Source: Flavobacterium frigidimaris
GTDB taxonomy: Bacteria > Bacteroidota > Bacteroidia > Flavobacteriales > Flavobacteriaceae
DNA length: 64,000 nt
Assembly (NCBI GenBank): GCA_900129595.1
Contig: FQWG01000024.1
Coordinates: 1 to 64,000, forward strand
Direction: 5' to 3'
Numbering within the stretch: position 1 is the stretch's first letter; the number at the start of each line of letters is the position of its first letter. The translations under genes and the position numbers were made by a program. The notes below the pieces were generated by a model. The model saw only the letters and a list, made by a program, of their open reading frames with translations. It searched no databases and was not told where the DNA came from. Positions 3,595 to 10,054 of this stretch are shown one piece after another.

Positions 3595-4206
3595 ATGGCT
3601 TTTGAATTACCACAATTACCTTATGCATATGATGCATTAGAACCACATATTGATGCTCGTACAATGGAAATCCATCATACAAAACATCATAATGCCTACA
3701 CAACAAATCTTAATGCAGCAATTGCAGGAACAGATTTAGAAGGAAAAACAATCGAGAATATCTTAATCAACTTAGATAAATCAAACGCAGCAGTTCGTAA
3801 CAATGGTGGAGGTTTTTACAACCACAATTTATTCTGGACAGTAATGGCTCCTAACGGTGGCGGATTACCAACAGGTGATTTGTTAGCTGCTATCGAAGCT
3901 TCTTTTGGAACTTTCGAAGAGTTCAAAGCAAAGTTTGCTAAAGCTGGTGCAACACAATTCGGTTCAGGATGGGCTTGGTTAACAGTGCAAAAAGGTGGTA
4001 AACTAGAAGTTGTAGGTACTCCAAATCAGGACAATCCATTAATGCCGGAAGTTGCTGGTAACGGTGGAACTCCAATCTTAGGAATGGATGTTTGGGAGCA
4101 CGCTTACTACTTAAACTACCAAAACAGAAGACCGGATTATATTGAGGCTTTCTTCAGTGTAATTAACTGGACAGAAGTTGCAAGAAGATTTGCTTTGGAT
4201 AAATAG
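3595..4206 (+). CDS. sodA: Superoxide dismutase, Fe/Mn family (Mn-type signature)
   Basis: Dismutates superoxide to peroxide and oxygen. At 203 residues it is normal length with no signal peptide, so it is cytoplasmic. The metal ligands are visible as His27 ([10 protein letters not shown]), His77 (NHNLFW), Asp165 and His169 (DVWEHAYY). The outer-sphere glutamine falls in TPNQDNPL (Gln145) and the stretch before His77 reads GGGFYNH rather than the AAQxxNH of iron enzymes. Both point to a manganese-type or cambialistic enzyme. Metal use cannot be decided from sequence alone. It is a single gene with its own terminator. Confidence 0.95.
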
Positions 4207-4232
4207 TCAAAAATAGAGTAAAGAATAAAGAG

Positions 4233-4268
4233 AAAAGACGGATGACTTAATAGTTATCCGTCTTTTTT
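4233..4268 (+). terminator. Rho-independent terminator after sodA
   Basis: AAAAGACGGAT and ATCCGTCTTTT pair around a 12-base loop and are followed by a T run. Confidence 0.88.
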
Positions 4269-4313
4269 TGTTTATACTTTTATAATCTATTTTCTTTTCT
4301 CTAAAAAAAAAAT

Positions 4314-4382
4314 AAAAAAGGCGGAATTTCTTCCGCCTTTTTTGCCCCAAATCTACCATAAACTTACCTACTAATGTTATGG
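4314..4382 (-). ncRNA. Putative ~69-nt small RNA, copy 1 of 3
   Basis: On the minus strand this reads CCATAACATTAGTAGG, a short stem-loop closed by TTATGG, a conserved linker TAGATTTGGGGC, then a GGCGGAA/TTCCGCC stem with a GAAA tetraloop and a T run. The terminal stem differs from copies 2 and 3 by a compensated pair (C-G here, T-A there), which supports a folded RNA. A -7-like box TATATTTA lies at 4395-4388; no good -33 was seen. It has one T fewer in the first loop than copies 2 and 3. Confidence 0.55.
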
Positions 4383-4454
4383 TTCAGTAAATATAGAGCA
4401 GCTATTTCTATTGTAAAAACTTTTCAGATGAATGGTCAATATATCCGATTAAGT

Positions 4455-4660
4455 AAGAAAAAGATAGAATATGGAGTAAGAATATAGGTAAAGAGTAAGA
4501 GAAAGAGAAAAGAGAAAAGAATAAAGAATAAAGAGAAAAGAGAAAAGAATAAAGAGAAAAGAGAAAAGAATAAAGAGAAAAGAATAAAGAGAAAAGAATA
4601 AAGAGAATGGAATATAGAGAATGGAATATAGAGAATGGAATATAGAGAATAGAAGCAACA
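4455..4660. repeat. Low-complexity purine tract (AGAGAAAAGAATAA and GAATGGAATATA repeats)
   Basis: About 200 bases of irregular tandem repeats: first AGAGAAAAGAATAA-type units, then three to four GAATGGAATATAGA units. The plus strand is almost pure A/G with occasional T. It separates small-RNA copies 1 and 2. An open frame on the minus strand across it is a by-product of the repeat, not a gene. Confidence 0.75.
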
Positions 4661-4771
4661 AGGGGAAAGAATAGAGAGAATTAAGAAAGCGCTTTTCGAT
4701 TATTTGTCTATTCTAGAAGCTTTTAGTCTATATTCTTTGCTCTATAATCTATTCTCTAAAAATAAATAAAT

Positions 4772-4841
4772 AAAAAAGGTGGAATTTCTTCCACCTTTTT
4801 TGCCCCAAATCTACCATAAACTTAACCTACTAATGTTATGG
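4772..4841 (-). ncRNA. Putative ~70-nt small RNA, copy 2 of 3
   Basis: Same design as copy 1: CCATAAC...TTATGG stem-loop, TAGATTTGGGGC linker, then GGTGGAA-GAAA-TTCCACC and T run. The -7-like box is TACTTTTA at 4854-4847. Sequence similarity with copy 1 continues upstream to TCAGATGAATGGCCAATAT (4883 on), so the duplicated unit is roughly 140 bases. Confidence 0.55.
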
Positions 4842-4956
4842 TTCAGTAAAAGTATGGCAGCTATGCTTATTAAAAAAAAATTTCAGATGAATGGCCAATA
4901 TATCCGACCAAAAGAGAGTAATGGTTTTAAATTGAAATACTTGAGTTTATTCCAAT

Positions 4957-5026
4957 AAAAAAGGTGGAATTGCTTCCACCCTTTTTGCCCCAAATCTACC
5001 ATAAACTTAACCTACTAATGTTATGG
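4957..5026 (-). ncRNA. Putative ~70-nt small RNA, copy 3 of 3 (best promoter)
   Basis: Same two-hairpin design, with the terminal stem GGTGGAA/TTCCACC closed by GCAA instead of GAAA, still a GNRA tetraloop. It has the only full promoter of the three. It lies just downstream of purF on the same strand but has its own promoter. The predicted RNA would begin at CCATAAC and end in the T run of the hairpin. Confidence 0.6.
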
Positions 5027-5031
5027 TATGT

Positions 5032-5063
5032 CAAAAGTATTATAGCTTTTCATTTTTACCAAA
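5032..5063 (-). promoter_or_regulatory. Promoter of small-RNA copy 3
   Basis: On the minus strand TTTG (5063-5060) and TACTTTTG (5039-5032) are 20 bases apart, a full match to the Bacteroidota -33/-7 pattern. The predicted start is about 5026, exactly where the conserved repeat unit begins. Confidence 0.68.
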
Positions 5064-5127
5064 CATATGGGATGAACGGCAAAAAAAACCGATGAAATGC
5101 ACAAATTAACCTTTTGTTAGTATTTTA

Positions 5128-7026
5128 TTAATACGCTCTTGCGTCTTTTCCCTCATAGAAATTCATGAAAGCTCTGTTTACAACACGATTTCCTCCCGGA
5201 GTCGGATAATCACCTGTAAAGTACCAGTCTCCAAGATTTTTTGGACATGCAATGTGTAAATCTTCTACTTTTTGGAAAATGATTTTTACTTCAGCATTGA
5301 TTTCCGGAGAACTCAACATCTCGGCAATTTTATCTGAAACTTCTTCAGGAGTAAACTGATCGTAGATGGCAGTAACATAATTTATAACATCACTATCGAT
5401 ATAGTTTTCCTGAGCTTTACATTTTGCATATACTTCATCAACAATATGATATAAGTTTCTTTCTTTCAATAAGGCTAAAGCTGCTCTAAAAGCAACAAGA
5501 CCTTCTAATTTTGCCATGTCAATTCCGTAACAGTCAGGGTAACGGATTTGTGGAGCAGATGAAACGATTACGATACGTTTGGGATTTAAACGATCCATCA
5601 TTTTGATGATACTCATTTTTAATGTAGTTCCGCGAACAATACTATCATCGATGATCACCAGGTTGTCAGTTGGTTTTATTACTCCGTAAGTTACATCGTA
5701 AACGTGAGCCACTAAATCATCACGGCTGCTGTCTTCAGTAATAAAAGTCCTAAGTTTAGCATCTTTGATCGCTACTTTTTCTGTACGGATCTTTACAGCT
5801 AGTAATTCCTGTAAAGTTTCTGCAGTTAGTGTATTTCTGTTGGCCAGAATATAATTGTTTTTTCTCTGATTTAAGAAATCCTGAGCAGCTTCAACTAAAC
5901 CATAAAAGGAAGTTTCTGCTGTGTTTGGGATGTAAGAGAAAACAGTGTTGTCAGTATCGCTGTCAATTGATTCAAGAACTGCAGGTAAGATTAATTTACC
6001 TAAGTTTTTACGTTCCTGGTATATTTCAGCGTCACTTCCTCTTGAGAAATAAATTCTTTCAAAAGAACAGGCTTTCTTAACGGTTGGTTCCAAAATCTGT
6101 TCCATCGAAACTTTTCCGTTTTTCTTGATAATCAAAGCGTTTCCGGGTTCGATTTCCTGAACACTATCAAAAGGTACGTTAAATACCGTTTGAATAACAG
6201 GTCTTTCAGAAGCTACAACGACAACTTCATCATCCTGATAAAAGTAAGCCGGACGAATTCCTGCCGGATCTCTGAAAACAAAAGCATCACCATGACCTAA
6301 TAATCCGGCCATTGCGTAACCTCCGTCAAGATTTTTAGCAGAGCGTGTTAGTATTTTTGCAATATCCAATCGGTCTGCGATTACGGGAGAAGCTTCTCTT
6401 TTAGAGTAACCTTCGAGTTTGCAGTCCTGATACAATTGCATTACTTCTTTGTCTAGAAAGTGACCAATTTTTTCCATAACGGTAACAGTGTCCGCCATTT
6501 CTTTCGGGTGTTGTCCCAGTTCTACTAAATTTTCGAAAAGTTCTTTAACATTCGTCATGTTAAAGTTACCTGCCAAAATTAGATTACGGTGCATCCAGTT
6601 ACTCTGACGTAAAAATGGGTGTACACTTTCGATACTGTTTTTTCCGAAAGTTCCGTAACGAACGTGACCTAAAAATAATTCTCCTATATAAGGAATGTTT
6701 GCTTTTTGAGCTGCAACATCATTTGCATATTCAGGATGAGAAGTCATTTCTTCGTTGACACGCTCATTGATTTGTTTGAAAACGTCCTGGATAGGCTGCG
6801 CGTGGTTCGAACGGACTCTGCTGATATAACGTTCGCCTGGTTCTACGTCTAATTTGATGCTGGCAAAACCCGCACCATCCTGACCACGGTTGTGCTGCTT
6901 CTCCATCATCAGGTACATTTTCTGAATCCCGTAAAAAGCAGTTCCGTATTTCTCTTTATAATATTCAAGCGGTTTAAGAAGTCTAACTAAGGCTATACCA
7001 CATTCGTGTTTTAAAGCGTCGCTCAT
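5128..7026 (-). CDS. purF: Amidophosphoribosyltransferase (PurF family, long form)
   Basis: First committed step of purine synthesis: moves glutamine amide nitrogen onto PRPP. The N-terminal glutaminase domain begins MSDALKHECGIALVRL; Cys9 would become the N-terminal nucleophile after removal of an eight-residue propeptide. HNRGQDGAGFA and HVRYGT are glutaminase motifs. The C-terminal phosphoribosyltransferase domain has NLVIIDDSIVRGTT near residue 455-470. At 632 residues it is over 100 longer than the E. coli enzyme, with extra sequence in the C-terminal part. It is monocistronic: a terminator precedes it, and small-RNA genes follow it. Confidence 0.9.
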   Translation of the reverse strand: MSDALKHECGIALVRLLKPLEYYKEKYGTAFYGIQKMYLMMEKQHNRGQDGAGFASIKLDVEPGERYISRVRSNHAQPIQDVFKQINERVNEEMTSHPEYANDVAAQKANIPYIGELFLGHVRYGTFGKNSIESVHPFLRQSNWMHRNLILAGNFNMTNVKELFENLVELGQHPKEMADTVTVMEKIGHFLDKEVMQLYQDCKLEGYSKREASPVIADRLDIAKILTRSAKNLDGGYAMAGLLGHGDAFVFRDPAGIRPAYFYQDDEVVVVASERPVIQTVFNVPFDSVQEIEPGNALIIKKNGKVSMEQILEPTVKKACSFERIYFSRGSDAEIYQERKNLGKLILPAVLESIDSDTDNTVFSYIPNTAETSFYGLVEAAQDFLNQRKNNYILANRNTLTAETLQELLAVKIRTEKVAIKDAKLRTFITEDSSRDDLVAHVYDVTYGVIKPTDNLVIIDDSIVRGTTLKMSIIKMMDRLNPKRIVIVSSAPQIRYPDCYGIDMAKLEGLVAFRAALALLKERNLYHIVDEVYAKCKAQENYIDSDVINYVTAIYDQFTPEEVSDKIAEMLSSPEINAEVKIIFQKVEDLHIACPKNLGDWYFTGDYPTPGGNRVVNRAFMNFYEGKDARAY

Positions 7027-9871: not shown

Positions 9872-9965
9872 AGAATTTTTAAAAAATAAATAAATTCCAA
9901 TTTTTAAATTCCAAATTCCATTTCCAAAGCTTTTTTCAGGAGCTAATCCCGCTATTCGTTCCAAT

Positions 9966-9995
9966 CTTTTGTGTCCGCCGCGGCGGGCACAAAAG
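9966..9995. repeat. GC-rich 30-bp palindrome
   Basis: TTTTGTGTCCGCCG is followed immediately by its near-perfect mirror CGGCGGGCACAAAA, with one mismatched pair. The GC content is far above its surroundings. It resembles a REP-type dispersed palindrome. Confidence 0.65.
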
Positions 9996-10054
9996 GATTT
10001 CCACTTCTATCGGGGCTAGGGCACTTGTTTTCATGAGAACCATTTCTCATTTTT

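Follow-up and report, generated by a model that had tools for sequence, protein, structure and literature searches.

A tandem family of putative trans-acting small RNAs between purF and sodA, conserved in the Flavobacteriaceae

Introduction

Near-identical base-pairing small RNAs (sRNAs) that are present in multiple, partly tandem copies and are controlled by dedicated regulators include LhrC1-5 of Listeria and AbcR1/2 of the Rhizobiales. In soils, fresh waters and the sea, Flavobacteriaceae are among the major degraders. To our knowledge, few sRNAs of this family have a known role, and none with a family-wide role has been described. The FopS family of Bacteroides consists of RNAs of about 65-70 nt with many scattered paralogues, which have housekeeping-type promoters and pair with 5′ regions of surface-protein mRNAs, mainly SusC mRNAs, near the start codon (PMC11697453). 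In Flavobacterium psychrophilum, the sRNA Rfp18 is conserved genus-wide, affects secreted-protease mRNAs, is described with a third stem-loop that pairs with targets, and has a predicted secreted adhesin target (PMC9723704).

Here we describe three tandem sRNA-like units in a contig of Flavobacterium frigidimaris (FQWG01000024.1, positions 1 to 64,000; this whole stretch of 64,000 nt is hereafter the window). Their multicopy arrangement is like that of LhrC1-5 and AbcR1/2, which belong to other phyla and have unrelated sequences. The units share with FopS the phylum Bacteroidota, the length, the many paralogues, the housekeeping-type promoter and a pairing, predicted in our case, with the 5′ region of a surface-protein mRNA. 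Unlike FopS, they are arranged in tandem, differ in sequence and have a predicted target paired far from the start codon; they also carry direct repeats upstream, whereas tandem activator repeats do not figure in the available part of the FopS report (PMC11697453). The units and Rfp18 are both conserved in the genus; compared by description only, the ~70-nt units fold into two hairpins, in contrast to an RNA that uses a third stem-loop, a longer transcript of the units being possible. One of the Rfp RNAs (PMC9723704) or of the candidate sRNAs of F. columnare (PMC5395568) may belong to the same family as the units.

Results

Three near-identical units downstream of purF

The three minus-strand units lie directly downstream of purF, on the purF strand and between purF and sodA, and are 96-100% identical over 70 nt (Table 1). 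The names purF and sodA come from the original prediction and our own reading of the sequence. Each unit consists of a 5′ hairpin (CCAUAA/UUAUGG), the linker UAGAUUUGGGGC and a 13-bp terminator hairpin with a T-run. Fold z-scores against shuffled sequences were -4.5, -3.5 and -3.7, the three units beating at least 198 of 200 shuffles. The array has the form of a tandem multicopy sRNA locus, with near-identical copies that each possess a promoter and a terminator.

The original prediction, made on this sequence alone, had placed three tandem units on the minus strand, and they are present at the coordinates it gave. The compensated pair that it pointed out is also seen, as GGCGGAA/TTCCGCC in copy 1 and GGTGGAA/TTCCACC in copies 2 and 3. 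Two of its observations hold in part. The terminator loops of the three units are of the GNRA type (GAAA, GAAA and GCAA), but homologues have others such as ATCT and CTCT, and the GNRA loop was rejected as a functional element since terminator loops vary. The conserved parts were described as single-stranded, which is true of the linker; CCATAA and TTATGG pair in the 5′ hairpin, so that part of this conserved sequence is paired.

Between copies 1 and 2, at window positions 4502-4654, about 11 copies of a purine-rich unit (AAAGAGAAAAGAAT) are repeated in tandem with a period of 14. Comparable purine-rich repeats adjoin the sRNA array in another genome (locus L283).

Table 1 Features of the purF-sodA interval in the window.
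Feature	Position	Strand	Remarks
sRNA copy 3 (purF-proximal)	4957..5026	-	Predicted transcript ~5026 to 4957
sRNA copy 2	4772..4841	-	
sRNA copy 1	4314..4382	-	
Copy 3 5′ hairpin	4999..5026	-	CCAUAAC...GUUUAUGG, loop AUUAGUAGGUUAA
Copy 3 linker	4987..4998	-	UAGAUUUGGGGC; invariant, single-stranded, proposed seed
Copy 3 terminator hairpin	4957..4986	-	Covarying in homologues
Copy 2 linker	4802..4813	-	UAGAUUUGGGGC
Copy 2 terminator hairpin	4772..4801	-	
Copy 1 linker	4344..4355	-	UAGAUUUGGGGC
Copy 1 terminator hairpin	4314..4343	-	
Copy 3 -7 box	5032..5039	-	TACTTTTG
Copy 2 -7 box	4847..4854	-	TACTTTTA
Copy 1 -7 box	4388..4395	-	TATATTTA
Copy 3 direct repeat 1	5088..5101	-	Core TTCATC at 5096-5091
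Copy 3 direct repeat 2	5068..5081	-	Core TTCATC at 5076-5071
Copy 2 direct repeat 1	4903..4916	-	Core TTGGTC, starting 4911
Copy 2 direct repeat 2	4883..4896	-	Core TTCATC, starting 4891
Copy 1 direct repeat 1	4444..4457	-	Core TTAATC, starting 4452
Copy 1 direct repeat 2	4424..4437	-	Core TTCATC, starting 4432
purF (amidophosphoribosyltransferase)	5128..7026	-	Upstream neighbour; ORF, synteny
sodA (superoxide dismutase)	3595..4206	+	Convergent neighbour; own terminator 4230-4269; ORF, synteny

Comparison with known RNA families

In Rfam 15, no family passed its gathering threshold, whether at the units or in eight loci that are homologous or related, and the core sequence was not met in the literature searched. 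Membership of Flavo-1 (RF01705), another flavobacterial RNA, which is about 76 nt long and occurs in this genome region, had been suggested. No RF01705 match was obtained at the units (gathering score 42 bits). Two Flavo-1 RNAs were detected elsewhere in the window on the minus strand, at 2477-2554 (70.8 bits) and 9941-10021 (71.7 bits); these serve as a positive control and argue against the units being overlooked Flavo-1 copies, Flavo-1 being a different RNA. FopS (RF04319) was rejected at 18.3 and 16.9 bits against a threshold of 56. STnc40 (RF02057) was likewise rejected, with 31.5 bits against a threshold of 45, a score driven by the terminator hairpin and obtained on the opposite strand too.

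Distribution and synteny

BLAST detected the unit in 32 of 60 related genomes, with strong matches in the same genus and few, weak matches outside it. A covariance model (R1) found the sRNA in 216 of 249 genomes of the genus Flavobacterium (E ≤ 1e-3), leaving about 13% in which it is absent or unrecognised, and in 165 of 199 Flavobacteriaceae genomes, corresponding to 164 of 198 genera. Named records carrying it include Aquimarina, Winogradskyella, Salegentibacter, Formosa, Lacinutrix, Aequorivita and Christiangramia, which identifies the host family as Flavobacteriaceae. The sRNA was not found in other families of the order, where the best match scored 34 bits, the size of a terminator-only match, against at least 65 bits for clear members. 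Conservation across the Flavobacteriaceae excludes a chance origin of the units.

Arrays contain one to six copies. In all same-genus loci inspected the units lie just downstream of purF, mostly with sodA next, and the order purF-units-sodA is retained in other genera; a few extra copies occur away from both genes (L075, L079, L090 and L131). In one Flavobacterium subclade, this position is occupied by a divergent form with loop GUAAAUUAA and linker UUUUUGGGGGC. A separate model (R3) confirmed this form in eight genomes that score weakly with R1. In the purF-sodA interval, the divergent sRNA is amplified to nine copies in one genome (L120, G239) and to six in another (L119 and L135, G251). Two weak R3 matches of 38.6 and 35.8 bits, 12 kb apart in one further genome (L350 and L357; G022, C1:1262304 and 1274067), may reflect a distant relative or be due to chance. 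Gene conversion of terminators between copies was considered and rejected, its signal being weak (23% vs. 5% near-identical).

Structure and covariation

In an alignment of 103 units (82 distinct), the terminator helix is paired in 99.9% of cells. The original prediction made further compensatory stem changes in homologues its touchstone, and two-sided changes were observed at eight of the 11 terminator pairs. The covariation score of the whole structure was 0.278, compared with 0.105 for shuffles and no more than 0.064 for slid versions of the structure. This alignment was fitted to the model and is hence biased towards the structure; an unfitted alignment (A3) agrees with it. The 5′ helix is paired in about 90% of cells, and its changes are mostly one-sided, from A-U to G-U, since hardly any variation occurs in its 3′ arm and the linker. 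The 3′ arm and linker are therefore constrained in sequence beyond pairing, indicating a seed or a protein site. Conservation is higher in the core than in the terminator that follows it, and the core is near letter-for-letter constant across the Flavobacteriaceae.

Two structural candidates were rejected. The inner UUA/UAA pairs of the 5′ hairpin do not form a conserved helix, one pair being unpaired in 37 of 82 sequences. An alternative hairpin (GUARR/UUUAY) is favoured in the divergent Flavobacterium clade, but the GUUCAUGG form, which is common among other genera, disrupts it.

A promoter with direct repeats at every copy

Every copy has its own promoter, composed of two GYAKTTCATCTAA-like direct repeats with a 20-bp period and a TAnnTTTG box, followed by the RNA start. 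Among 217 non-redundant upstream regions (mutual identity at most 70%), the -7 box TAnnTTTG matched at five or six of six positions in 209, and its end was 5-7 nt from the unit start in 206, with about 5 nt at the three host copies. The 14-bp motif resembling GYAKTTCATCTAA occurred twice, 20 bp apart, in 193 regions, and the second repeat was 37-38 bp from the -7 box in 198. The promoter score was 14.6, compared with a median of -2.7 in shuffled regions.

A full promoter had been noticed at copy 3 and an approximate -7 box at copies 1 and 2. The boxes are as described, with TTTG...TACTTTTG in copy 3 and TATATTTA and TACTTTTA in copies 1 and 2, respectively. However, copies 1 and 2 also have the direct repeats upstream of the -7 box and so are not promoter-poor. 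The TTTG box at -33, taken then as a key element, is weak family-wide; the conserved element is the direct repeat with its 20-bp period.

It is known that response regulators with a LytTR domain bind repeats of 9-11 nt with spacers of 11-13 nt, and that one of them, YpdB, binds GGCATTTCAT twice in the E. coli yhjX promoter (PMC4847170). Direct repeats of almost this sequence (GCATTTCAT) precede the sRNA promoter too, with a period of 20 bp in Flavobacterium as against 21 bp in the yhjX promoter. The sRNA promoter repeats, of about 9-10 nt with a spacer of about 10-11 nt, are at or just below the LytTR range (PMC4847170). The shape of the repeats and their 20-bp period thus incline us, with limited confidence, towards LytTR-type activation of the sRNA promoter.

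A predicted target in the leader of a giant adhesin mRNA

A scan of the host genome for the repeat-plus-box pattern, allowing one mismatch, gave 20 sites, including the three sRNA copies, compared with nine in a reversed control. Another of these sites (L270/L286, contig C30:2417-2549) would produce a transcript beginning CGACUCCAAAUCUACUAAUUUAACCUAAAGG, the leader of an ORF starting MRNFTF. This transcript start is predicted to pair with UAGGUUAA and GUAGAUUUGGGG of the sRNA, the duplex energy for the host genome being -30 kcal/mol, and the complementarity spans the first ~25 nt of the predicted leader transcript. The encoded protein has 2,400-3,800 amino acids in complete cases and a C-terminal CHU_C type IX secretion domain (PF13585, E = 1.1e-22); against TIGR04131 it scored 34.9 bits, with a cut-off of 35.

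The leader, about 220 nt long, was aligned with orthologues (L287-L307, L374, L379 and L381). The repeats, the -7 box and CC-AAAACUAC-UAAUUUAACC are kept in 22 genomes of the genus, and the same layout occurs in two further genomes (G077 and G106), giving 24 in all. In all 22 leaders the energy of the duplex with the sRNA was below the mean of dinucleotide shuffles, with a mean z of -3.1 and a best z of -4.7; pairing was weak in five of them (z -1.7 to -1.8). Later windows of the same leaders pair more weakly, with means of -10.7 to -14.1 kcal/mol. Furthermore, the letters differ between orthologues, for example CUACCAU against AUGGUAG in L305 and UUUAACCU against AGGUUAA in L296. That complementarity is reached by different letters argues for selected pairing. 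By energy alone, the leader ranks 11th of 63,840 windows from 0.8 Mb of the host genome, which is not specific; the case is therefore carried by conservation and by the shared promoter.

A conserved target leader with complementarity to the conserved proposed seed is confined to one Flavobacterium group, with genomes of 4.4-6.2 Mb, whereas the sRNA itself is family-wide. Within this clade, the adhesin leader is probably a true partner of the sRNA.

Other genes with the same promoter repeats

Across 81 genomes of the genus, the exact pattern occurred at about 76 sites, compared with about 18 in the reversed control. In addition to those of the sRNA, recurring sites lie 15-90 bp before genes for exported proteins of about 120 and about 215 amino acids and for secreted adhesin-like proteins. 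The two families of small exported proteins (L311, L317 and L326, and L324 and L328) had no Pfam or NCBIfam match and are possibly further members of one regulon. No clear complementarity to the sRNA was found in the leaders of these other genes.

Discussion

The covarying terminator stem, the promoter at each copy and the family-wide homologues bear out the triplicated sRNA family first proposed, and the units are almost certainly a real family of independently transcribed RNAs, transcription being what we infer from these features. The trans action proposed with it keeps its standing as probable, given the complementary adhesin leader conserved in 24 genomes: we consider it likely that the sRNA acts by base pairing in trans. 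The whole reading that best explains the data is that of ~70-nt trans-acting base-pairing sRNAs, activated by a LytTR-type regulator and having the adhesin leader as one target, to which we give a probability of about 0.68. Each copy would be its own transcription unit. Most likely a LytTR-type response regulator binds the two upstream direct repeats and activates the TAnnTTTG promoter, and the transcript would begin at CCAUAAC and end at the hairpin and T-run. The exposed linker UAGAUUUGGGGC and the hairpin loop AGUAGGUUAA would then pair with target mRNAs, the predicted one where the ~220-nt leader of the type IX-secreted adhesin begins. Since the adhesin promoter has repeats of the sRNA type, a single signal would induce the adhesin mRNA together with the sRNA that pairs with it, forming a feed-forward loop. 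Pairing may either repress or stabilise the adhesin mRNA, the start codon being too far downstream to be covered. The tandem copies would raise the sRNA dosage.

Other explanations were weighed against base pairing in trans. The units might instead be protein-binding RNAs, in which an RRM-type or other regulator recognises the invariant hairpin loop and the G-rich linker and is titrated by the tandem copies. RNAs of the CsrB/RsmY type titrate CsrA in this manner, and CsrA targets carry the site in a hairpin loop. The constancy of the core goes beyond what is usual for a seed alone and, together with arrays of up to nine copies, suits such a function. However, the G-rich linker is single-stranded, unlike CsrA targets, and a conserved complementary mRNA leader exists, so that protein binding appears improbable, though it is the strongest of the rivals.

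Less likely still, the adhesin leader may be a sponge, not a target, that captures the sRNA upon induction of the adhesin gene. The promoter repeats common to leader and sRNA, and a pairing site at the extreme 5′ end of the leader, more than 200 nt from the start codon, would be compatible with this role. Against it, the leader alignment has no evident terminator before the ORF, and therefore the leader is part of the mRNA; moreover, one sponge facing several sRNA copies makes a poor stoichiometry.

Very little speaks for the units being only the purF 3′ end, as a processed 3′-UTR fragment or a terminator shared with sodA, lacking a trans role. They are on the purF strand some 90-120 nt past its stop, and the hairpin, flanked by an A-run and a T-run, could terminate in both directions, but each copy comes with a promoter and repeats of its own, the core upstream is better conserved than the terminator itself, and copies exist away from purF and sodA at the four loci listed above. 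A short translated ORF (AUGGUAGAUUUGGGGCAA...) can practically be dismissed despite an AGUAGG 8 nt before the AUG in most units, for there is no stop codon ahead of the terminator, changes in terminator loop length shift the frame, and the core lacks third-position variation.

Returning to base-pairing sRNAs, a broader and tentative reading, which we hold to be rather less than an even chance, is that of a core Flavobacteriaceae sRNA with a dedicated two-component LytTR-type activator, serving a surface-protein regulon as its RNA arm. That activator would induce both exported proteins and the giant adhesins secreted by the type IX system, and the sRNA would pair with mRNAs of the regulon.

The sRNA is present in more than 80% of the sampled genera and absent from Rfam, and it comes with an activator signature and a testable partner. 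The covariance model obtained here allows its annotation. For the Flavobacteriaceae, the sRNA offers a direct way into studying how surface adhesins and type IX cargo are controlled after transcription.
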